From: Phycisphaerae bacterium
GTDB lineage: Bacteria; Planctomycetota; Phycisphaerae; UBA1845; PWPN01
NCBI GenBank assembly: GCA_012729395.1
Contig: JAAYDF010000227.1
Coordinates: 1 to 48,778, forward strand
Length of the DNA stretch: 48,778 bases
Direction of reading: 5' to 3'
A model generated the notes under the pieces. The model did not search any database. It saw only the letters and a list, made by a program, of their open reading frames with translations, and was not told where the DNA came from. Position 1 is the first letter of the stretch. Each line of letters starts with the position of its first letter. Below are positions 6,693-22,758 of the stretch, piece by piece. The position numbers and the translations under genes are program-made.

Positions 6693-9600
6693 TTACGGGC
6701 GGCTGGTCAGGCGGAGGGCGGCCTGGGCGAGCCAATCGGCGGCAGGCAGGGCGTACGGCCGGAACTTTTCGATCAGGCCGAGTTCCTCGCTGAAGAAGAG
6801 GGCCCGGTACAAGCCGAGGCGGTTGGCTGCGGGCGAATCGATCAGGTTGCTCGAATCGGCGGCACTCATCTGGAACAACACACGGTTGTCGAACTCGCCA
6901 AGAGCCTGGCGGTCAAGCGTTCGATCCAGTGTGGCCGGGGTGTCTGCCCAGGCCAGGACATGGATACCCAGTGGCGGGCCCTCGCGGAGTAGATCGGCGA
7001 ACTGGCGGCCGGGATCGGGCGGGCGGTCCTCGTCCGAGCGGCCGAAGGAGAAGTCATCCTCCTTTCGCCGCAGAACCCTGTAACGCTGCAAGCCAAGGAC
7101 GACGAGATACACGGCGGGGGAATGGGCTGATTCATCGCTTTGGCGTCGATCGGCCTCGGCGGCCAACTCGGCGATAGCCTGGGGCACATCTCGGTAATCG
7201 ACACAGCGGCAGTCGTGCGGCAGGGCGTTCGTGACGCGGGCCAACGCTCCCGCCAAGGGCGAGTCGGCGGGTGTACCGTCGAGGATCACAAAACGGGCCT
7301 GATCCCGCGGGTGCCAAGCCCCAAGGCTGAACATCGCGGCTGCCAGGATACCCGTGGCCGACTCGTCGCGCTGTCCAACGAGTAGCAGATGGGCACCGCT
7401 TTGCCGGCGGAAGGCGACGGCGGTGGGCTCCTTAATCGCCACCGGCTCGCCCAGCCAAGCTTGTGGCGGCCCCACGTCGGTCGGCCAACCGGGAGCCTCC
7501 AGCAGGCGAGCCAGCGGGCGGTTGGCGGCCAAGTCGGCAGGAATATGGCCCTCAAAGATCGCGGGCGGCTCGCCGGCGGGTACCTTCCGGGCGACGGCCA
7601 ACTCGCGGACGCGGGCGAGGCATGCGTCCCGGTCTTCGTCGGGCAGCCAAGCAGTCTGGAATGGGTTGTTGCCCTGCACGAGTCCGCCGGCGTCGTTGTA
7701 GATGGCCTCCCCCGGGCGGCTGAGCAATCGGGCGGCCACATTGTCGTCGTCGAGGATGAGTTGCGAGTCGGCCTCGGAGCATTGCAGGGCGATGCGCACG
7801 GCCATCTGCCCGATGGTGCTACGAGCCAGGCCGCTGGTGCCGCCCAACGTCTGCGAACCAAGGATGACGTGTACGCCGAACGCCCGCCCTTGCCGCACCA
7901 GCCGGTCCATCAGAATCATTGCGTCCTGGGCGAGCTTGTCGTCCTCGGAGAAGAAGATCTGGAACTCGTCGACGATCAGCAATGTGCGCGGCATACGTTC
8001 GCCGGTCGCCTCGCGATAGCCGGCCAAGTCCTGCACGCCCGCCTGCCGAAACAGGTCGCCGCGCCGGGTCAGCTCCTGATCGAGCCGTTGCAGCACGCTG
8101 AGCCCGAACTCGCGGTCGCTCTCGATGGCCACCGCGCGGGCGTGGGGCAACCGATGGGTCACATACGTCTTGAACTCGACGCCCTTCTTGAAGTCTACCA
8201 GGTAGAATTCGACCTCATCGGGGCTGTACCACAGGGCGAGGTTGGTGATGATCACGTGGAGCAGAGTGGACTTGCCGGACCCGGTCTTGCCAGCAATGAG
8301 CACGTGCTGAGCGACGCCCTTGCCGAGGTCGAGTTGCTGCAAGCGGGTGGCCCCAGTCCGGCCGACAGGCACGCGCAGACCGGTGCGACTGCTGCCTGTC
8401 CACTCGGCTTCGGACGACGGGGTGATGGCCGAGAAGGGCACCTCGACGCGTTTGGCCTTAAGTGACGCCCGCCCGACCGCTTGCATGAGCCGGGTGAGTC
8501 GGTCCTCTACCGGCGGCTCATCGAGCTTTAGCGGAAACTGCCGGTAAATCTCATCCTGCCAGACGAAGCCTGCCCCGTTGTGCACCAAGTGCGTGCAGCG
8601 GGCTTGGAGATCCTCGATCTGCACGCCGGGCGGCAGCGATTGGCGGCTGTCGTGGGCGATCAAGGCATGCACGCCACAGCGGGCGCCGCTGGCCACGATG
8701 CTGCTGAGCCGCCGAGCGGCCTCCTCGGTGAAGTTCACGGGGAAGTCAGCGATGACCAGGAAGCGGTAGGGCTCGGCCAGCTCGCCGGCTTGCAGGTTGT
8801 ACGCGTCGATGGTCTCGAACTCGTTCCGCAGGTACTTCTGGATCACGTTCTCCATGTGCGTGGTCAGGTCGCTGAGTCGCTCCTCGATGTGGGCCGCGTC
8901 GGTCCAGATACGCCCACCGACCAGGCTCTCCTGATAATCCGCCAAGTGCATGAAGCCCGCGAAGTTCTCGCCGAGCCCGACAGGGTCCACAATCGTGAAG
9001 AGCACGCGTCCCGGCGGCAAGGTGGTCAGCAGGCGAGCCATGACCGCCTGCAAGGCCCGCAACGCTTCCTGTCGTCCGGATCGGCCCGTCTCCAGCAGCA
9101 GCGAGCAGCGATCCGGCAGAACCAGCGGAGCGGGCACTTCCAGGGGCCGTGCTGACTCAACGGGAAACGCCGCCCTGGCCTGGATGCTCTCCGCCAATTG
9201 CCCGAGATCCACGAGCAGTTTCCCGAAGCAAACCACCGGCGGGAAGCTGTCTCGCGGCTGCCAAGCCTCCCAGGAGGCATCGCGCCAGTCTTTGCCGAGA
9301 TCGCTACCGTACAAGGTCGCCTGGTCGATCAGTGCGCGGATGCGTTCGAGCCCCTGGTCCCAACGCGACTCTAGAGATGCCCGGGCCGCGGCATGGGCGG
9401 AATGGGCGTCGGCGATCTCCCGCTCGTGACGCTCCCGGGCGGTTGCGAGGTCATTCTCGTAGCGTTGCCGCAAATCCAGCCCGCCGTCCGGGTCGGCGCT
9501 CTCCATCTGCTGGAGCTGGCCCACCCGCCATCCGTCGATCTCTTCGCGCAGTCGCGTGTACTTCTCCTCCAAGTGCTGCAGCGAAGCCGTCCGCCGCCGC

Positions 9601-10703
9601 TCCACCTCGGCGGTCAGCGCGTCGAAGCGTTCCTTGAGTCTGCCGATCTCCACGTCGCGTCGGTGCAGGGCGGCCTCTTCCCGCTTCTGCAACTGCTGTT
9701 CGGTGTTGGTCAACCAGGCGTTCAATGCGACGCGGGCCGCGGCTAGATGGCTGCACAGCGGCAGGTAGGCGGCACGGATTTGCTCGCGGCTCTGTTGTCG
9801 GAGGTGCCGGCCCACGAGCAGCGTGCCCCCCAGGCAGACCGCCAACGTGGCAGGGCCCGTCCATGCGAGAGAGGGCACATACGGCACACGGAGCACGGAC
9901 AGAAGGATCGCGAGCCCGAGCCCGGCGACGCAGATCGCGGTTGTGTAGATCTGCGGCCGACCGCCGATGAACAGCCGCGGGGCACGCAGCGAGATCAGGT
10001 CATCCAGGTGAGACTGGGCCTGTTGCATATGGCTCTTGGCGGCGCGACCGGGGTCCTGCTCGCTATCTTCACTTGCCGGCGCATCGGGGATCGCGGGGGC
10101 GATCTGGTCATCAGCGGCGGGGGGTGTCTGCCCGTAGAGATTGAGCGCGGCGTCGGCCTGTTCGCGCAGTTGGTCGAGCTGTGCAAGCCGGGCCGGGACC
10201 AGCTTGCGGACTCGGGCGACCTCTTTGCGAAGCTTGCCGCGTGTGCTCTCGGCTAGCGTCTCGGCCAGCCAGACCTCATGCTCGAACTCGCGGCGGGCTT
10301 CGCCGGCCAGTGTGCGCACCTCTTCGCGGATCGCCTCGCGGGCGGCCTGGGTGCTCGATTCGAGATTCTGGCTGCCCGTGGTGAACTGCGAATCGATCTG
10401 CTGCAGCGATTCCTGTCGCCGTTTCTCCAGAGCCGCGAGGATGCTCCCCAGCCGCTCCTCGATCCGCCGCAGCGTCTGCTGGTATTTCTCCTCCGCATGG
10501 GCCAGGGCGGTTTCGTGCTGCCGCGATATCTGGGCTTCGACCGGGCGGACCGTCTCCGTGGACAGCTTGAGTACCTCGGCCAGAGCTCCCTTCTGAAGAG
10601 CCCGGGGATCGTCATCCCGCATGGCCGGTACGTTTCGCAGGTAGTCTTGTAGCAGGTCGGGCATAGCTGTCGTGTTTGAGTGCTTGCGGGCGGAGGCCTC
10701 CAT
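6693..10703 (-). CDS. FtsK/SpoIIIE-domain ATPase, EssC-like (type VII secretion-like)
   Basis: A 1336-residue membrane ATPase. A long coiled coil (about 40-190) and an acidic linker precede two adjacent membrane helices (about 250-305). A second coiled coil (about 325-480) is followed by an FtsK-like domain with Walker A GKTGSGKST near 805 and Walker B LLIVDEFQ near 906. A second ATPase-like module (about 1080-1336) has only a degenerate P-loop (VGQRDESATG near 1105), as seen in the later ATPase domains of some EssC/EccC proteins. No FtsK gamma DNA-binding domain is evident, which argues against a chromosome translocase. It is the last gene of an operon with WXG100-like proteins, starting 3 bases after the stop of the small helical gene. 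The likely role is to power export of those proteins; substrates are unknown. Confidence 0.88.
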   Translation of the reverse strand: MEASARKHSNTTAMPDLLQDYLRNVPAMRDDDPRALQKGALAEVLKLSTETVRPVEAQISRQHETALAHAEEKYQQTLRRIEERLGSILAALEKRRQESLQQIDSQFTTGSQNLESSTQAAREAIREEVRTLAGEARREFEHEVWLAETLAESTRGKLRKEVARVRKLVPARLAQLDQLREQADAALNLYGQTPPAADDQIAPAIPDAPASEDSEQDPGRAAKSHMQQAQSHLDDLISLRAPRLFIGGRPQIYTTAICVAGLGLAILLSVLRVPYVPSLAWTGPATLAVCLGGTLLVGRHLRQQSREQIRAAYLPLCSHLAAARVALNAWLTNTEQQLQKREEAALHRRDVEIGRLKERFDALTAEVERRRTASLQHLEEKYTRLREEIDGWRVGQLQQMESADPDGGLDLRQRYENDLATARERHEREIADAHSAHAAARASLESRWDQGLERIRALIDQATLYGSDLGKDWRDASWEAWQPRDSFPPVVCFGKLLVDLGQLAESIQARAAFPVESARPLEVPAPLVLPDRCSLLLETGRSGRQEALRALQAVMARLLTTLPPGRVLFTIVDPVGLGENFAGFMHLADYQESLVGGRIWTDAAHIEERLSDLTTHMENVIQKYLRNEFETIDAYNLQAGELAEPYRFLVIADFPVNFTEEAARRLSSIVASGARCGVHALIAHDSRQSLPPGVQIEDLQARCTHLVHNGAGFVWQDEIYRQFPLKLDEPPVEDRLTRLMQAVGRASLKAKRVEVPFSAITPSSEAEWTGSSRTGLRVPVGRTGATRLQQLDLGKGVAQHVLIAGKTGSGKSTLLHVIITNLALWYSPDEVEFYLVDFKKGVEFKTYVTHRLPHARAVAIESDREFGLSVLQRLDQELTRRGDLFRQAGVQDLAGYREATGERMPRTLLIVDEFQIFFSEDDKLAQDAMILMDRLVRQGRAFGVHVILGSQTLGGTSGLARSTIGQMAVRIALQCSEADSQLILDDDNVAARLLSRPGEAIYNDAGGLVQGNNPFQTAWLPDEDRDACLARVRELAVARKVPAGEPPAIFEGHIPADLAANRPLARLLEAPGWPTDVGPPQAWLGEPVAIKEPTAVAFRRQSGAHLLLVGQRDESATGILAAAMFSLGAWHPRDQARFVILDGTPADSPLAGALARVTNALPHDCRCVDYRDVPQAIAELAAEADRRQSDESAHSPAVYLVVLGLQRYRVLRRKEDDFSFGRSDEDRPPDPGRQFADLLREGPPLGIHVLAWADTPATLDRTLDRQALGEFDNRVLFQMSAADSSNLIDSPAANRLGLYRALFFSEELGLIEKFRPYALPAADWLAQAALRLTSRP

Positions 10704-10706
10704 CGT

Positions 10707-10940
10707 TCACAGAAAGACGTCACTGTCCCGGCCACAATCCTGCCGGATGCGGCCCAGGAGCATCTGCAGATGCCCCAAACCCTCCTCGACGGTTCGCAGT
10801 CGAGTGAGCAGGGGGGCGAGGTACTGGTCCTCGAAGGCCTGGCTGTTCGCGTCCCGCCAGACCTGACGCACCTCATTCCATTGAGCGAGCAGATCCTTGG
10901 TCGCCTGCTTGAGTCTGGCGTGGGCGGCATCGACGCTCAT
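10707..10940 (-). CDS. Small helical protein, divergent WXG100/ESAT-6-like
   Basis: A 77-residue all-helical protein. Its centre reads VWRDANSQAFEDQYLAPL (about 27-44). This matches the W-x-x-x(5)-F-x(3)-Y/F layout around the helix turn of WXG100 proteins, with WRD replacing WxG. The same WRD...F pattern appears in the 90-residue protein two genes upstream, suggesting the two are relatives or partners in a heterodimer. Its start overlaps the stop of the preceding gene (ATGA) and its stop is 3 bases from the ATPase start, so it is translationally coupled. The fold assignment is inference from pattern and context. It lacks a signal peptide, as ESX substrates do. Confidence 0.75.
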   Translation of the reverse strand: MSVDAAHARLKQATKDLLAQWNEVRQVWRDANSQAFEDQYLAPLLTRLRTVEEGLGHLQMLLGRIRQDCGRDSDVFL

Positions 10941-11617
10941 GGCTTCCCTCCACCGTCGGGCGACGGCCCAGATCCAGGCTCAGGCGTTATCGTATCCTGG
11001 GCCGGCGGGCTCTGCACCTTGTGATCAGGGGGCGGAGCGTCGATCGCCTGCCCTTCATCAGCCAAAGCACCCGCCGAGGCGGTCCACGCGGTCTGCCACC
11101 CCGCCTCAGGCAAACCAGCCATCTCCACGGGCGACACCGCGAGATAGGCATGCAGGGCAGCCATCATATTGTCCAGACGGGCGAGTATAACCGGCAGTTC
11201 ACCTTCCACCGCCTGGCTGAGACCCTGGGCAGCGCCCTTGTATGCGAAGGCTTCCTCCTCCAGTTTGCGGCCCCAACGTGCGACATTGGACAGCTTGCGC
11301 TGGGCCTCCTCCGAGCGACGTTGGGCTTTGGCCAGCGCTTTACGCTCGTCCACGCAGGAGTAATGACCGCCCAGAGGGGTCGTCTGGCTTTCCTGACGTC
11401 TCAGGATAAGGCGGGCTCGGTGGACCTCTTCGTCACGCCGACGGACCTGATCCTTCCAGTAGGTGTGCATCTCCTGGCCGAGCCAAATCCCCGAGCGACT
11501 CAAATCCGAGTCCGCCTCCGCCAGGGCGACACGCACCGCCTCCGCGAAGCGGCACAGCGAAACGCGCAACCGCCCCAGGGCGTCAATCGAGTCTACGCGG
11601 GCGTGGTCGTGGCTCAT
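10937..11617 (-). CDS. Coiled-coil protein of the type VII-like operon
   Basis: A 226-residue protein with no family I can name. It is mostly helical with strong charge periodicity (about residues 45-165), including WLGQEMHTYWKDQVRRRDEE and a Lys/Glu/Arg-rich segment. A hydrophobic region follows (about 150-172), then a proline-rich disordered tail (about 185-226). It has no signal peptide. The gene overlaps its neighbours on both sides by four bases (ATGA), placing it between the WXG100-like gene and the second small helical gene. The size and long helices would suit a chaperone, adaptor or LXG-like effector of the system, but no toxin domain is visible. Confidence 0.8.
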   Translation of the reverse strand: MSHDHARVDSIDALGRLRVSLCRFAEAVRVALAEADSDLSRSGIWLGQEMHTYWKDQVRRRDEEVHRARLILRRQESQTTPLGGHYSCVDERKALAKAQRRSEEAQRKLSNVARWGRKLEEEAFAYKGAAQGLSQAVEGELPVILARLDNMMAALHAYLAVSPVEMAGLPEAGWQTAWTASAGALADEGQAIDAPPPDHKVQSPPAQDTITPEPGSGPSPDGGGKP

Positions 11618-11886
11618 CGCTGCTGCAGGTACTCCTCAATGTGGCCGGCCTTCTTGGCCAGGAAGGCTACGTGTCGATCCGAGTATTCCAGGAATCGGCC
11701 CAGCACCTTCACCGCCTGCTGGAACTCCTCCGTGAACTTCCGCTGCTCCTGATCACGCCAGGTCTTCTCCAAAGTGAGCAGGCGGGCCTGCAAGCCACCC
11801 ATCAGGCCCTGCAACTCGGTATTGAAGCGAGTCAGATCGCGGGCAAAGCGTCGCAACTCGGCGGGATCGACATGGGCGCCAGGCAT
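11614..11886 (-). CDS. WXG100-family protein (ESAT-6-like)
   Basis: A 90-residue helical hairpin protein of normal WXG100 length. The turn carries TWRDQEQRKF (about residues 43-52), a WxD variant of the WxG motif followed by the conserved aromatic, and then a second helix ending in EEYLQQR. It has no signal peptide. WXG100 proteins are secreted as folded dimers by EssC/EccC-type ATPases, and one is encoded three genes downstream. The ATG at 11886 was chosen because GGAGG lies about 6 bases upstream; a TTG at 11898 is an alternative. The reading frame overlaps the end of the PhnD-like gene by about 55 bases, and its own stop overlaps the next start (ATGA). Confidence 0.85.
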   Translation of the reverse strand: MPGAHVDPAELRRFARDLTRFNTELQGLMGGLQARLLTLEKTWRDQEQRKFTEEFQQAVKVLGRFLEYSDRHVAFLAKKAGHIEEYLQQR

Positions 11887-12935
11887 GACCACCTCCAAGG
11901 TTGACTCTCGCGGGCTCGCCCGGCGGAACCGGTGGCCGCCGGGGTCGTCGGGGTCGTCGGGGTCGTCGGCTTCAGCAGACGCCAGATCTTGCCGACGGGT
12001 TCGTAGTCCCGGGCATCAACCGGCGGCGCGAAGCCCTTGTAGTTCAGAGCGGCCAGGGCCAGCCGGTGTTTCCTCGGTGCCTCATCGAAGAGAAACGTCC
12101 GCACCCGCTCCCGCAGCTGGGGATCGGTCTTGATCGAAACCACAAACGGTCCCCCGGGAATTCGGACCGTCTTGCCGATGATCCGCACCTGATCCTTGGA
12201 TGGACGCAGCAGAAGCAGGCTTCCACCCGTTTGCGTCCATTGGTTGTAGTCGTATTCGTCGATTACGCCGACCGCCTTGTCCTCGACCACCACGCTCTTG
12301 GCCACTTCAAGCGAGTTGATGTGGTAGGTCAGCATGCTCAGGCCCGGTAGCAGGCCGGGCGTCACCTCCGACCTGGGTACGCCCGCCTCGATCATCGCCC
12401 CGATGGCCGCGTCATTCAGACGGTCGCCCACCGGCAGGAAGTGGAACCGCAAAGACCGGGCGTTACTTAGCGTGTCGATGGTTGACTTGGGCGGCACGAT
12501 GATCAGGCCCTGGCGGTAGGGCTGGTTGTTAAGATTCAAAGGCACAGCCAGGATCTCGCCCGTGCCGGCGGATACGACCTCGGCGAATTCCCCGGGCTGT
12601 AACATCGCGAATTGGAGTCGGCCCGTGCCCATGTGCACGCGGATCTGGCGCGGGGTCATCAACTCGAACTGTACCGGTTCCTGCAAGTAGTGCGACAGGC
12701 CCAGGCGCAACGCCTCCCATTTGGGCAGCAGGAAGGGCGGCGAGAGATCCAGCGTGGTGACGCCGACACGGATCGGCGGCCCGCCCATGCCGAGCACGTT
12801 CAGTGGATCGACGGTCCGGGCGGTGTCCTGGCAGCCGCCAAACAGTGCGAGAAGCAGTAGCCCGGCGACTTGCGGTCCGCATCCGCGGACTGCGCGGGGA
12901 TGATTCACAGCTTGTGCACCTGGATCCGCCGACAT
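11832..12935 (-). CDS. PhnD-like periplasmic substrate-binding lipoprotein
   Basis: Up to 367 residues, of the phosphate/phosphite/phosphonate-binding (PhnD, PF12974-like) fold. A lipoprotein signal peptide ends in the lipobox LALFGGC (about residues 29-35). The mature part has the type II periplasmic-binding layout, including MTPRQIRVHMGTGRLQFAML and VGVIDEYDY. No ABC permease or ATPase accompanies it. It leads the type VII-like operon, so it may be a sensor or docking protein and not a transporter subunit. The tail contains a Thr-Thr-Pro repeat encoded by a 9-base tandem repeat (about 11940-11970), and the last 55 bases overlap the WXG100 gene. The start is uncertain: ATG at 12935 or GTG at 12908. 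Confidence 0.82.
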   Translation of the reverse strand: MSADPGAQAVNHPRAVRGCGPQVAGLLLLALFGGCQDTARTVDPLNVLGMGGPPIRVGVTTLDLSPPFLLPKWEALRLGLSHYLQEPVQFELMTPRQIRVHMGTGRLQFAMLQPGEFAEVVSAGTGEILAVPLNLNNQPYRQGLIIVPPKSTIDTLSNARSLRFHFLPVGDRLNDAAIGAMIEAGVPRSEVTPGLLPGLSMLTYHINSLEVAKSVVVEDKAVGVIDEYDYNQWTQTGGSLLLLRPSKDQVRIIGKTVRIPGGPFVVSIKTDPQLRERVRTFLFDEAPRKHRLALAALNYKGFAPPVDARDYEPVGKIWRLLKPTTPTTPTTPAATGSAGRARESQPWRWSCLAPMSIPPSCDALPAI

Positions 12936-15397: not shown

Positions 15398-18127
15398 TCA
15401 CAGCCCCGTGCAGAGCGGATCGCCGTCGATGTTCGTTCCTGAGAAGCACTGCCTGAAAATGGAACTGTCGGTTGCGTCGACATCCTGGTCGTTGTCCAGG
15501 TCCGCGGCGAGGCAGTCCGGATCGCCGATCACTTGGCCCGACCCGCCCAGGCATAACTGAAAGAGACCGTAGTCGCTGAGGTCTACGTCGCTGTCGTCGT
15601 CAAGGTCACCGGGGATCGGCGGTGGTCCGGCCACAGTCAGGGTTGCCGCTTCCGACGGGACGGTTCCGCACTCGGCTGTCGCGACGCAGACGTACTGCCC
15701 GGCATCGGTGCTGCGGACGTCGGCGATGGTCAGCGTCGCGGCCGTCACACCCGAGAACCGCCCGCCATTGGCGAGGTTGGCACCATCCTTTTGCCATTGA
15801 TAGCTGATTGTGTTTTCGCCTGCGGCCATGATGCTGAACTGCACCGTCGTCCCGCGCGTCACCGACGCCGAAGCCGGCTGCTGGGTCACACGGGTGGCGG
15901 CTCTGAGCGTGAGGTTCGCCGTCGCGGATGTGGCTGAACCGCACAGAGCGGTGACGACGCAGCGATAACTCGTGATCTCACTGGTGCTGACGTCGGAGAT
16001 GGTGAGCGCGGCCGTCGTGACACCGGAGAATCGCCCGCCGTTGCTGAGGTTGACGCTGTTTTGCTGCCATTGGTAGCTGAGGGTACCGCTGCCGGTGCCG
16101 GCCACTGTGAACTGAGCGGTGTTGCCGAGGCACACACGTTGACCGGCGGGATGCTGGGTAATTGCCGTGACTGCTCGCAGTGCGAGCGCCGCCTGGTTCG
16201 AGGTGGCGCTGCCCGCGCTGTTGGTCACCATGCAGCGGTAGTTGCCGATGTCGCTGGCTTGCGTATCGCTGACGGTGAGCGTGGCCGTGGTGACGCCGCT
16301 GTAGTGCCCGTCGTTGGCCAGGTCCGAGCCGTCCTTCTGCCATTGGTAGCTGAGCGTGCCGGCCCCCGTCGTGGCCGTGACGGAGAACGTCGCGCTCGTT
16401 GCCGGGCAGACAGTCTGGCTCGACGGGTGTTCGGTGATCGTCGGGGCTTGAACCGCCGTCGCCCGATACCCGCTGTCCGAGATGCTGAACCCGCTGCTGC
16501 CACTGCTGTTGGTCGCCTTGACCCAGTAGTAGTAGGTGGTCCCGGATACGGCGGTGGTATCGTCGTAGGATGTAACGGTTGGAGCGGCGAGTTGACTGGC
16601 TGATCCGCTGTTGTTCGTGGTTGCTCGCCACACTTGGTATCCGGTCGCGCCGGTGGAGGCGTTCCATGCGACCGCTACCCGATCGAGATACGTGCCGTCG
16701 CTGGCGGTTACGCCGGTCGGAGCATCCGGGATGGCCGGCTGCGTCAAGTCCTGGATCGTCCACCCGTAGGCGCTGTAGTAATGATCGAGAATCCAGGTGT
16801 AATCCTTGCCTTGCGTGTTGGCCCACCGTTGCGAACCCCACTGGCATAGGCCGCGCCCATGGCCGTTGAATGTCGCCCCGCAACAGACCGAGTCATGAAG
16901 ACAGACGCCGTCGCTGGGTTTGTTCTCGATGTAGCAGTCGCCGCACCCGGGGCTGTTGTTGTTCTCCGCCGAGTACTCCGCCCGCCCGATGGTGCGTGTG
17001 CTGCTGGCCAGATAAATGCCCGCCGTCGCGTCGACCGCCGTGTTGGTGGCCGTGTAGGTGTTGGTCCCATAGTTCTGGCAGCAACTGTTGTCGCAGATGT
17101 CGTAGAACGAAAGGGGGTTGTAGGTGTACCATCCCGAGTAGCTGCGGATGGCGATGGCCCCGGCCTTCAACGAGTTGCTGTGCCACGAAGCGTACCACTC
17201 CGCCGGCAGGACCCGCTTGACGTAGGTCTCCATGCTGATGATTTCGACCTCGGTGCATGTGCGGCAACTGCACGAACGCCCTAACCGCACACTGGTTGGT
17301 GCCGTTTGTTCTCTCGGCGCGAGTTCCGACTCCGCGGCGGGCGGCACTGCAGATGCCGGCGGCTCGTCCAGGTACGCAACCTTGATGTCGTGCAGCAGCA
17401 GCAACGGTAGCCTGCCAAGCATGCCCCGCTCGTCCTCGACTACCTCGTCCGCCCTCAACCGAATCCGAACCAGTACCGTATTCGCCGTCGCCAAAAAGAG
17501 GTTCGTTCGCTGGTACGCACCGTAACCATCCCTCGTCGCCGTCAAACCGAAAAGGCCGCACAGCTCGGCCTCGTTGCCCGGAACCGGTTGCCCGCCCGCC
17601 AAAGGCACGCTCAACGAGAAGAAGCCCCGGTCATCGGTCTCGGTCGCCAGCTCCAGGCCGCTCAACTCGATGTGCACGCCCGGTAGCGGTTTGCCCTTCA
17701 GGTCGTCGACGATGTAGCCGGCCAACCCCGCTATCCGATCCTCAGAGTGACCTGCCAGCAATTGTAGCGCATCGGTCGAGGCTTCGGCCGGCGGTGCGAG
17801 CGGATCCAGCCATACCACGTGATTCAGCGGGCCGTCCGGCGAAGGGGTGAGTCGGGCCCGCATGTCCTGGTAGCCCCACGCACTGACGCTCAGCGAATGG
17901 TCGCCGGCCGATAACAAGAGACACACCGTGCCCTTGGCACCCATGCGGGAGGAATACTCCTCTCCGTCTACCACAATCGACGCAGGCGTGACCGTCACCC
18001 CCGTCACGCTATCCCGGAACGCCAGCGAAACGTCCCCGGGCTGCGATGCCGTAGCCATGAGCGGACCGGCCAGGCAAACGAACAAGGCCACGCTATTCCG
18101 GGCGACCCGGTCGGCGATTGCCAGCAT
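15398..18127 (-). CDS. Secreted SpoIID/LytB-domain protein with Fn3, Ig-like and dockerin-like repeats
   Basis: A 909-residue exported multidomain protein. Order: signal peptide (about 8-28), a carboxypeptidase-regulatory-like beta domain (about 132-185), a SpoIID-like domain (about 290-455; EIISMETYVKRVLPAEW to CQWGSQRWANTQGKDY), an Fn3-like domain (about 466-545), and three Ig-like repeats of about 90 residues each containing the SYQW core. Two dockerin-like EF-hand motifs (DLDDDSDVDLSDYG and DLDNDQDVDATDSS) end it. SpoIID proteins cleave denuded glycan strands in peptidoglycan. The SpoIID part here is cysteine-rich, as expected outside the cytoplasm. AGGAAGGAG precedes the ATG by about 7 bases. 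It may act in the cell envelope or on foreign cell walls. Confidence 0.9.
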   Translation of the reverse strand: MLAIADRVARNSVALFVCLAGPLMATASQPGDVSLAFRDSVTGVTVTPASIVVDGEEYSSRMGAKGTVCLLLSAGDHSLSVSAWGYQDMRARLTPSPDGPLNHVVWLDPLAPPAEASTDALQLLAGHSEDRIAGLAGYIVDDLKGKPLPGVHIELSGLELATETDDRGFFSLSVPLAGGQPVPGNEAELCGLFGLTATRDGYGAYQRTNLFLATANTVLVRIRLRADEVVEDERGMLGRLPLLLLHDIKVAYLDEPPASAVPPAAESELAPREQTAPTSVRLGRSCSCRTCTEVEIISMETYVKRVLPAEWYASWHSNSLKAGAIAIRSYSGWYTYNPLSFYDICDNSCCQNYGTNTYTATNTAVDATAGIYLASSTRTIGRAEYSAENNNSPGCGDCYIENKPSDGVCLHDSVCCGATFNGHGRGLCQWGSQRWANTQGKDYTWILDHYYSAYGWTIQDLTQPAIPDAPTGVTASDGTYLDRVAVAWNASTGATGYQVWRATTNNSGSASQLAAPTVTSYDDTTAVSGTTYYYWVKATNSSGSSGFSISDSGYRATAVQAPTITEHPSSQTVCPATSATFSVTATTGAGTLSYQWQKDGSDLANDGHYSGVTTATLTVSDTQASDIGNYRCMVTNSAGSATSNQAALALRAVTAITQHPAGQRVCLGNTAQFTVAGTGSGTLSYQWQQNSVNLSNGGRFSGVTTAALTISDVSTSEITSYRCVVTALCGSATSATANLTLRAATRVTQQPASASVTRGTTVQFSIMAAGENTISYQWQKDGANLANGGRFSGVTAATLTIADVRSTDAGQYVCVATAECGTVPSEAATLTVAGPPPIPGDLDDDSDVDLSDYGLFQLCLGGSGQVIGDPDCLAADLDNDQDVDATDSSIFRQCFSGTNIDGDPLCTGL

Positions 18128-18395
18128 GTGTACTCCTTCCTGCGACTCTGAAGACGTCATCTTCATTCTGTCATTCTTGGCCGCCAGATGCAAATCCCCA
18201 GCTTCCAAGGTCGGTGCGAGTACACCAAGCAGAGCCGCGACCGTAAGGGAGCGGTTCCGGCGGTAGCGGTCGCCCCGTCCGCCGCGGCGGACAGGCTGTG
18301 GCGACCGGCGTGCTCACGATGATTTCTGCAGTTCATGGTGTGCGACGTTCGCGGACTTGAGCGAACACCTCGGTACCGGAGACGGCATGCACCAA

Positions 18396-20202: not shown

Positions 20203-22758
20203 ATGCGGTTTTGGGATGGAACGGACGTGATGGATGGAAATAGGATGCGGCGCGTTGGCGTGTGGGTTCTGGCTGTGGCCATGGCGGGGATGATGTCGGC
20301 CGGAGTGCTGGCCCAGCAGACGCCCGCCTCGGTGCCGACCGAAGGCGTGGGGCCGAAAGCCGTCTGCGACGAGCCGACCTTCGACTGCAAGGAAGTCTGG
20401 TCGGGTGACAAGGTTGAACACGCTTTTGTCATCCGTAACACGGGTGACGCGGCGCTCAACATCACTGAGGTGCGTGCGGGCTGTGGCTGTACGGCGACCC
20501 AATACGACAAGACGATTGAGCCGGGCCAGACGGGGAAAGTCACAGCGGTACTCTCAACCAAAGGCATCCGCACGAGGTTCAGTAAGCCCATCTATGTCGG
20601 CACCAACGATCCGCAGAACGCGAGGATCACGCTGACCCTGCAGGGTGTGGCCAAGCTACGCGTGGTTATGACGCCGCCAAACGGCGCGGACTTCGGACGG
20701 GTCGGCATCGATGACGTGGACCCGATCAAGGTGCGGCTGACGAACAGCACGGATGAGCCAATGAAAATCGACCTGCTGGACCCGACGGCCCAGCACGCGG
20801 TCTTCAAAGCCGCGGTCGAGGAAATCGAGGCGGGCAAGGTTTACGAGGTGACCATCACACCGCAACGGCCGTTCGCGGAAGGGGCCAACATCGCGTTGCT
20901 CAGTGTGCAAACAGGGTTGGAGGATGAGCCCCAGATACCCATTGCCTGCCGGCTTTTCTCCCCTGTCATTCTGGAGGTGGTCCCGGGGTCGATCATGCTG
21001 GGGGTACCTCCGAATCGGGACATGGAGCGCAAGATCCAGTTGCGGTACAACGGCGCGGGGGAGATGAAGATCCTTTCCGCCGTCGCATCGGATCCTTCGG
21101 TGCCGGTGGAAATCAAAGAGTTGACCGCGGGCAGGGTTTATGAAGCAACGGTGACGTTGCCGGCAGGATTGATCATTTCTCCGCAGCAGCCCCTCGAGAT
21201 CAAGATCGCGACAGACTGTGAGTCTCGACGGGAGGTGATCATTCCGATCTCCATGCGGGCGGGGGCGCAGCAGGGTGTTGTCGCGATGGTGGAGTCGCTT
21301 GTGGGCAAGTCGGCACCGACGGCAAGCGTGGCGTTGGCGACGGCTCCGGGCACGATCTCGCTGGGGGGAAGCGGGAAGGTCATGGCGATCAACTTCTGGG
21401 TGAGTTGGGGGCAGGATTCCTCGCGGCAACTCCCCATGATCAACCGGCTTGCCCAGACCTACGGGCGACGAGGGGTCGAGTTTGTCATGGTGAGTGGTGA
21501 TGACATGCGGACTCCGCAGGAGGTTGTCCAAAAAGCCAAACAATTGGGCGTGAACCTGCCAATCGGGGTTGACGCAAACCGATTGGTAAGCCGCCAGTAC
21601 GGAGTGGATCGCTGGCCGCTGCTTGTGTTGGTCGGCAAGAGCGGAACCATCGAGGCGGCGCATCGTGGCATTGGGCGGACTCCCGAGGCCGTGGCCGCCC
21701 TGGAGGCGAAGATCGAGAGCGAATTGGACACGCTGATCGCCGACAAAACGCGGGGCGAGTTCCCTGTGCCAGCGGTTCCGCCGAGTTCGACCACCGCCGG
21801 TGATCAGGCGGAGATTTTGCCGCCGGCCATCGCGGCTCCGTTGCTGGTGGTCGAGTCGCTGCGGCAGGATGTCGGCCTATACAAGCCGGGCGAGCAGGTG
21901 GAGTACATTCTGTACGTCAAGAACGTCGGGCAGAGGTTGCTGCAGGTCAGCAAGGTGACCGCATCGGAAGGCGTTGAGTTGGATAGCACGGAGATCGCGT
22001 CGCTGGAGACCGCGGTACAGGGTCGGCTGCGCGTGAAGTTCCAGGCCCCCAAGGAGCCGGGACCGTTCGGCAAAACGGTAACGATCGAGTCGAACGATGA
22101 GCGCCGGCCGTCGCCGACCATTGCCCTGGCGGGTACCGTTCGGCCGTATATCGAGGTTGATCCGCCGGCCGGGGTCGATTTCTCGCGGACGCCAAGGCTG
22201 CATTCCATGCCTCGCCTGGCGACGCTGGCGTACAACGGCGAGGGCGCGGTGAAGTACCTCAAGGTCGAGTCATCTTCGCCGCGGTTCAAGGCGAGTGTGG
22301 ACCCGATTCCGAACACGCCGTATGCCAAGGTGACGGTGCAGTCGGAACCTCCTTTTGAGCCAGGGGCCAACGAAGCGACGATCCGCATCACGACCGATTG
22401 TCCGCAGCAGTCGTTGGTGACGTTTCCGGTCAAGCTGTTCGTCCCCCCGCGGATCGAGGTCATGCCGGCCGAGTTGATTCTGCCCCAGGCTTCCCGTTTG
22501 CAGCAGGGTATGGTGCAGATCCTTAACAACGGGGAGCGGCCGTTAAGTGTTCTCGGGGTCGTGCGGAGCAACGATCGGATTCTCACGCAGTTCGCCCCAA
22601 GCGGTGACGGCATGTCTTACGAATTGCGCGTGACCGTGCCGGCGGGGTATAAGTCTCCGGACGGCGGCGACAAGATTACTGTCCGCACGGATGACAGCGA
22701 GCATCCGGAGATCGTGATACCGATCCGGTCGACGGCGGGGCCGGTCTCACAGCGATAG
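20203..22758 (+). CDS. Exported DUF1573 protein with embedded cysteine-less thioredoxin-like domain
   Basis: An 851-residue exported protein (signal region about 15-37). A DUF1573 domain follows (about 50-150) with the hallmark AGCGCTATQ, then ASPM/Hydin-like beta domains (about 150-370). A TlpA/thioredoxin-like fold (about 380-495) reads INFWVSWGQDSSRQLPMI where redox-active relatives have WCxxC, so both catalytic cysteines are absent. Further DUF1573-like beta domains fill 535-851. The ATG at 20203 has AGAGGAG upstream. It converges on a MauE/DoxX plus rhodanese pair, a neighbourhood typical of planctomycete exported redox or assembly functions. It probably acts as a periplasmic scaffold; the exact partner is unknown. 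Confidence 0.85.
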   Translation: MRFWDGTDVMDGNRMRRVGVWVLAVAMAGMMSAGVLAQQTPASVPTEGVGPKAVCDEPTFDCKEVWSGDKVEHAFVIRNTGDAALNITEVRAGCGCTATQYDKTIEPGQTGKVTAVLSTKGIRTRFSKPIYVGTNDPQNARITLTLQGVAKLRVVMTPPNGADFGRVGIDDVDPIKVRLTNSTDEPMKIDLLDPTAQHAVFKAAVEEIEAGKVYEVTITPQRPFAEGANIALLSVQTGLEDEPQIPIACRLFSPVILEVVPGSIMLGVPPNRDMERKIQLRYNGAGEMKILSAVASDPSVPVEIKELTAGRVYEATVTLPAGLIISPQQPLEIKIATDCESRREVIIPISMRAGAQQGVVAMVESLVGKSAPTASVALATAPGTISLGGSGKVMAINFWVSWGQDSSRQLPMINRLAQTYGRRGVEFVMVSGDDMRTPQEVVQKAKQLGVNLPIGVDANRLVSRQYGVDRWPLLVLVGKSGTIEAAHRGIGRTPEAVAALEAKIESELDTLIADKTRGEFPVPAVPPSSTTAGDQAEILPPAIAAPLLVVESLRQDVGLYKPGEQVEYILYVKNVGQRLLQVSKVTASEGVELDSTEIASLETAVQGRLRVKFQAPKEPGPFGKTVTIESNDERRPSPTIALAGTVRPYIEVDPPAGVDFSRTPRLHSMPRLATLAYNGEGAVKYLKVESSSPRFKASVDPIPNTPYAKVTVQSEPPFEPGANEATIRITTDCPQQSLVTFPVKLFVPPRIEVMPAELILPQASRLQQGMVQILNNGERPLSVLGVVRSNDRILTQFAPSGDGMSYELRVTVPAGYKSPDGGDKITVRTDDSEHPEIVIPIRSTAGPVSQR

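Follow-up and report, generated by a model that had tools for sequence, protein, structure and literature searches.

Type VII secretion has been studied as a Gram-positive and mycobacterial process, and the types T7SSa-j are listed in Gram-positives only (Garrett et al. 2024, PMC11217815). Closer to the locus considered here are ATPases of three domains, of which only the middle one is active, that occur with a WXG partner in hosts including planctomycetes and verrucomicrobia, and that were called mobile T7SS in a table footnote (footnote 6) of Zhang et al. 2012 (PMC3482391). A further form was described by Bell et al. 2024 (PMC11090510), in which CoCoNuT-associated EssC-like ATPases without transmembrane (TM) helices are accompanied by two WXG100 proteins and a coiled-coil nuclease. 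In the case of Helicobacter pylori, a WXG100 secretion cluster has been named in a pan-genome paper that cites HP0062 and HP0066 (PMC4978471); this cluster includes an HNH/EndoVII-type nuclease gene, and no TM-anchored ATPase is described there. A planctomycete locus of this general type was proposed, in an earlier sequence-only reading, to be possibly undescribed, a wording that is too strong given the planctomycete ATPase/WXG combinations in the Zhang footnote and the soluble relatives of Bell et al. The kind is already known, and the planctomycete cassette is a distinct variant of it.

The window, meaning the whole stretch of DNA analysed, spans positions 1-48,778 (48,778 nt, forward-strand coordinates) of contig JAAYDF010000227.1 from Phycisphaerae bacterium assembly GCA_012729395.1 (genome label G000). 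Five minus-strand genes had been singled out in it, and all of the ORFs lie at the positions first assigned to them. The first, a PhnD-like putative lipoprotein gene (11832..12935; PF12974, E 4.8e-22), overlaps by 55 nt the gene for the 90-aa protein W90 (11614..11886), which starts with the ATG at 11886 and is preceded by GGAGG. ATGA overlaps join W90 to C226 (10937..11617) and C226 to W77 (10707..10940), and a 3-nt gap then precedes the ATPase gene (6693..10703). The last part of the PhnD-like gene (window 11832-11970, minus strand) encodes a low-complexity PTTPTTPTTP stretch, beyond which the gene continues through W90 coding sequence in a different frame.

A recurrence of the same five-gene order in other Planctomycetota, for which a search had been suggested as a check, was borne out for four of the genes. 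The order W90-C226-W77-ATPase is found in 29 of 41 planctomycete loci, the window included, and in 53 of the 80 loci of a second collection, where most of the other 27 are truncated by contig ends, 22 of them having less than 1.8 kb of contig before the ATPase. Such recurrence of four genes in the same order across the phylum means that the cassette is more than a chance arrangement. The PhnD-like gene had been cast as the leader of the system; since none of the 120 other loci has a significant relative of it alongside, it is an incidental, unconserved neighbour, and what is conserved is a unit of four genes instead of five.

W90 belongs to the WXG100 family by its match to PF06013 (29.3 bits, above the cut-off), with WRD replacing WxG. 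Its profile finds the solved structures of HP0062 (3fx7, E 2.6e-12; 2gts, 9.9e-12), EsxB (6e-10) and EsxA (1.5e-5), making the HP0062 protein of the H. pylori cluster its closest solved structure in a profile search of the PDB. Orthologues share 43-77% identity (33 rows), are always 90 aa long, end in YLxxR, and are more conserved than the ATPase. The turn carries WxD in 33/33 sequences and WxG in none (0/33). The second and shorter protein, W77, matches WXG100 models weakly (PF06013, E 0.038; TIGR03930, E 5.8e-4) and aligns with W90 by hhalign at a probability of 89.5 (E 1.9e-6), with WxD in 30/30 rows and W28 and D30 invariant. The WRD...F pattern that had drawn attention to both proteins is one string in each, TWRDQEQRKF in W90 and VWRDANSQAF in W77. 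Thus, as judged from these profiles, W90 and W77 are two homologous short WXG100-type proteins with a WxD turn, as had been suspected, and the hairpin fold is assigned to them by homology. A second WXG100 match in the same genome (contig C77) lies within a 701-aa helical protein, scores below the cut-off, and was not taken as a paralogue.

The hairpin of C226, by contrast with those of the two shorter proteins, is assigned by prediction. The AlphaFold2 model consists of a long antiparallel hairpin of two helices of about 70 residues each (9-77 and 89-160; pLDDT about 98 across the hairpin), followed by a disordered tail, and the protein is otherwise recognised by its conservation in the cassette. 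No Pfam family was matched, no nuclease or toxin domain was found in the Pfam search or in the model, and a Foldseek comparison with the PDB returned only generic coiled coils, none with E < 0.001. Homology of C226 to W90 or W77 was considered and rejected (hhalign probability 3.8 and 0.9, respectively). In some Phycisphaerae, long C226 homologues (L078, L080, L081, L085 and L094) carry a C-terminal Imm33-like domain (PF24719, above the cut-off, E down to 1.4e-14), which suggests that the C-terminus is the part of the protein that varies with function.

The 1336-aa ATPase matches Pfam FtsK_SpoIIIE (E 1.5e-34), and its best NCBIfam model is EccCa, at 124 bits against a cut-off of 509 (127 bits at the second ATPase domain), and EssC gives 101 against 778; both scores are far below the curated cut-offs. 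The chain begins with an N-terminal coiled-coil region, continues through two TM helices predicted from hydropathy (residues 255-273 and 279-297; 9813..9941) and a second coiled-coil region, and ends in three ATPase domains, D1, D2 and D3, all features being on the minus strand. Coiled-coil-like charged helical stretches stand on both sides of the hydrophobic helices. Among 71 orthologues, 64 have two such helices before D1, 4 have three and 3 have one. In an alignment of 14 orthologues, D1 (8484..9236) is without a P-loop, its lysine being absent, yet it is strongly conserved (DPVGLG, RIWTE, HMENVIQKYLRN), D2 is active and D3 (6696..7526) is degenerate, the last assignment drawing also on motif counts and on structural comparison with EccC/EssC. 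D2 (7638..8405) contains the Walker A motif GKTGSGKS (residues 805-812; 8268-8291), present as GKTGSGKS or GRTGSGKS in 71/71 orthologues, and the Walker B motif LLIVDEFQ (residues 908-915; 7959-7982), for which VDEFQ or IDEFQ are the common forms. The intact Walker motifs, paired membrane helices and coiled coils noted earlier were all recovered, and the protein is best described, on alignment and model, as a predicted three-domain EssC-like ATPase in which only D2 is active, D1 being a pseudo-ATPase and D3 likewise degenerate.

The structural model of ATPase residues 478-1336 (mean pLDDT 84.6) forms three tandem alpha/beta ATPase-like units, and the long multi-domain alignments obtained with VIA-align (461 to 725 residues) were to EccC/EssC. 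On one domain, FtsK motors (Z 27) and EccC/EssC (Z 25) score alike, so that the fold alone does not separate them. In a profile search of the PDB, the best matches of the ATPase were to T. curvata EccC, EccC5 and YukB, and FtsK scored far below them. No FtsK gamma domain was matched in the Pfam search, a separate FtsK is encoded on contig C142 of the same genome, and both observations, together with the position of the protein in the tree described below, indicate that it is not the chromosomal FtsK translocase, in agreement with the first proposal.

That proposal went further, and held the locus to be a reduced canonical T7SS derived from EccC/EssC, in which the PhnD-like lipoprotein would belong to the envelope part. 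The WXG100 family match of W90 and the EccC/EssC-like character of the ATPase speak for this derivation, and like T7SSa-j the cassette pairs an ATPase of EccC/EssC type with a WXG100 protein. The differences are more extensive: the ATPase falls in a separate clade and far short of the curated EccC/EssC cut-offs, the small proteins have WxD for WxG, the host is diderm and the lipoprotein is unconserved. EssB and YukD were not found in the genome of the window by searches that did match a positive control, and the absence of a YukD homologue had been correctly anticipated. EssB was found in 0 of 20 genomes, and a YukD-family match in 2 of 20; that in G353 (L184, contig C2) was rejected as a T7SS part, as it lies in an apparent JAB/E1-type ubiquitin-like cluster. 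A search for EccB gave no match, but control genomes were equally silent. The derivation of the cassette from EccC/EssC by loss of parts is thus largely refuted, and we regard it as very improbable.

Searches of plasmids identified multi-domain ATPase relatives in Rhodococcus, Deinococcus, Caballeronia and Helicobacter. The Caballeronia locus has the order vWA, WXG100, coiled-coil protein, two small genes, FtsK, CARF, vWA, PP2C and kinase, and that of Helicobacter the order WXG-like gene, coiled coil with a WHH/colicin-DNase domain, SMI1/KNR4, small gene and FtsK, such that the two share the cassette order WXG100, coiled-coil protein, small gene(s) and FtsK. The W90 profile recognises the WXG-like proteins beside these relatives, with E-values of 1.4e-25 for Caballeronia, 2.4e-17 for Helicobacter, 4e-15 for Rhodococcus and 8e-10 for Deinococcus. 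A profile of the planctomycete D2 scores the TerY-P-type plasmid relatives at 154-270 bits, the best EccC/EssC domain at 75-98 and the FtsK of the same genome at 60. In the tree, the cassette ATPases and four of the five plasmid relatives are joined (support 92/88), with T7SS ATPases and FtsK outside; the Deinococcus relative lies outside the cassette clade, on a long branch. By these comparisons the ATPase appears to group with the TerY-P/CoCoNuT-type three-domain EssC-like ATPases, apart from EccC/EssC and FtsK. Under the same hydropathy rule, no TM helices were predicted in the Caballeronia and Deinococcus ATPases, and single weak candidates in the other relatives. The best match in phages, from an unannotated record, aligns at 28% identity over 73% of the query. 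The three-domain FtsK ATPase of the Rhodococcus plasmid (L186, 7495-11463) carries a TerD domain (PF02342, E 4.4e-19) fused at its N-terminus, and a WXG100-like gene and further TerD genes are found nearby.

The locus can accordingly be compared with both published three-domain forms. With the module of Zhang et al. it shares the three ATPase domains, the middle one active, and a WXG partner, and with that of Bell et al. the ATPase layout, the N-terminal coiled coil, a pair of WXG100-like proteins (W90 and W77) and a coiled-coil protein in the operon. Domain layout, partners and TerY-P-type grouping of the ATPase make it very probable that the locus belongs to the three-domain EssC-like ATPase/WXG100 family known from TerY-P and CoCoNuT-type loci, as a form anchored in the membrane. 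Whereas the CoCoNuT/TerY-P form has a nuclease and reportedly no TM helices, the cassette has two predicted TM helices and, in place of a coiled-coil nuclease, the hairpin and tail of C226, and it has no vWA, kinase or phosphatase neighbours. Unlike the mobile module of Zhang et al., the cassette occurs in single copy, clusters by host family, is sometimes dispersed, and includes two further helical proteins as well as TM helices.

The pattern of inheritance bears out this last difference. The ATPase is present at orthologue strength in 62 of 392 genomes of the planctomycete phylum, the remaining genomes giving matches no stronger than the FtsK level, and W90 in 60; both occur together in 59 genomes, the ATPase only in 3 and W90 only in 1 (Fisher p 3e-65). 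W90 has one full-length copy per genome, and was present in 29 of 29 ATPase-bearing genomes tested, linked or unlinked, as was C226 in 17 of 20, again including unlinked cases. For instance, W90, C226 and W77 lie together, apart from the ATPase, in G251, G152 and G307, whereas W90, C226 and the ATPase are at separate sites, yet all present, in G024, G137, G105 and G356. Host families cluster in the ATPase tree, with 15 changes against a minimum of 14 and a shuffled mean of 28.7. The cassette is single-copy and looks to be vertically inherited with the host family. MAGs are the source of most loci, and misbinning may account for the single ones assigned to Alphaproteobacteria, Anaerolineae and Kuenenia. 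In one genome, G076, two ATPase loci (L061 and L068) occur with one W90. Flanking genes were considered as cargo and rejected, none recurring in more than 5 loci.

As to function, the best explanation overall, which we hold to be somewhat better than an even prospect, is a machine of the inner membrane by which the cassette's own hairpin complex would be exported or assembled. The ATPase would form an inner-membrane ring, the proteins W90, W77 and C226 would form a helical bundle docking on it, and ATP hydrolysis by D2 would move or assemble the bundle across that membrane, much as EccC/EssC act on WXG100 complexes. Export taken by itself is an even call. No outer-membrane partner and no separate cargo were found, and, because relatives are reported without TM helices, the ancestral role may have been something other than export. 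Scattering of the genes, as seen in some genomes, would be unusual for a dedicated secretion operon and counts against this explanation, as does the long-branched position of the Deinococcus relative outside the clade.

Some weight can be given to a mechanism without export, whereby the three hairpin proteins stay in the cytoplasm and serve as adaptors or regulators for a translocase or remodelling ATPase that is anchored in the membrane and acts on another target, for example DNA, the division site or the envelope. Each genome has one W90 and no WXG-domain effectors, W90 shows stronger conservation than the ATPase, no cargo genes recur nearby and inheritance looks vertical; moreover, YxxxD/E near the W90 C-terminus is found in 0/33 sequences, and thus the mycobacterial-type export signal is missing, a point that also weighs against the preferred explanation. 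A mechanism of this sort is nevertheless rather unlikely in our estimation, as the nearest functionally studied homologues of the ATPase are those of T7SS, T7SS secrete paired WXG100-type proteins, and in carrying its ATPase domains in tandem on a single polypeptide the protein looks like EccC/EssC rather than FtsK.

A module for toxin delivery or phage defence, comparable to the relatives associated with TerY-P/CoCoNuT, is suggested by the gene order shared with the loci of Caballeronia and Helicobacter, in which conflict-type parts are fused to the coiled-coil gene or follow it, and by the Imm33-like domain on some C226 homologues. Against such a role, the C226 of the window has no nuclease domain, no immunity gene, vWA, kinase or phosphatase lies next to the cassette, neighbours do not recur, multiple copies are absent and host families cluster; we consider it improbable. 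Given that C226 is a bare hairpin with a disordered tail, or in some Phycisphaerae carries an Imm33-like domain, as opposed to the nuclease fusion and immunity-type gene of Helicobacter, the cassette would most likely act as a fixed envelope or surface machine and not in toxin delivery. One possible history, advanced tentatively and with the odds somewhat against it, is that ancestors of the Planctomycetota, and possibly of other PVC bacteria, acquired a mobile WXG100/EssC-like module for toxin delivery or defence, which then shed its warhead, came to be anchored in the membrane and settled into a fixed machine of the diderm inner membrane, inherited vertically. The cassette would in that case be a type VII-like apparatus that has been 'disarmed' and serves a housekeeping role.

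In the open literature searched, where planctomycete and type VII matches beyond Zhang et al. were weighed by title, no description was found of a membrane-anchored, nuclease-free, single-copy four-gene form. The same holds for its separate traits, namely the two predicted TM helices in most orthologues, the WxD turn of W90 and W77, the lack of a nuclease domain in C226 and of an immunity gene next to it, and inheritance as a single copy along with the host family. The published view is of mobile systems, whereas those of Planctomycetota seem to be present in single copy and passed on vertically, with ATPases that look like membrane proteins, and a single-copy EssC-like/WXG100 set is present in about 16% of the sampled planctomycete genomes. 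A system of four genes allows one to ask what is the minimum for WXG100 handling in a two-membrane cell, and bears on how a conflict module may turn into a stable cellular one. Elsewhere in the window, positions 15401-18208 (minus strand) encode a single 936-aa protein that combines a SpoIID domain with several immunoglobulin-like domains, and positions 20203-22755 (plus strand) an 851-aa protein with DUF1573/HYDIN-type Ig-like and redoxin domains.
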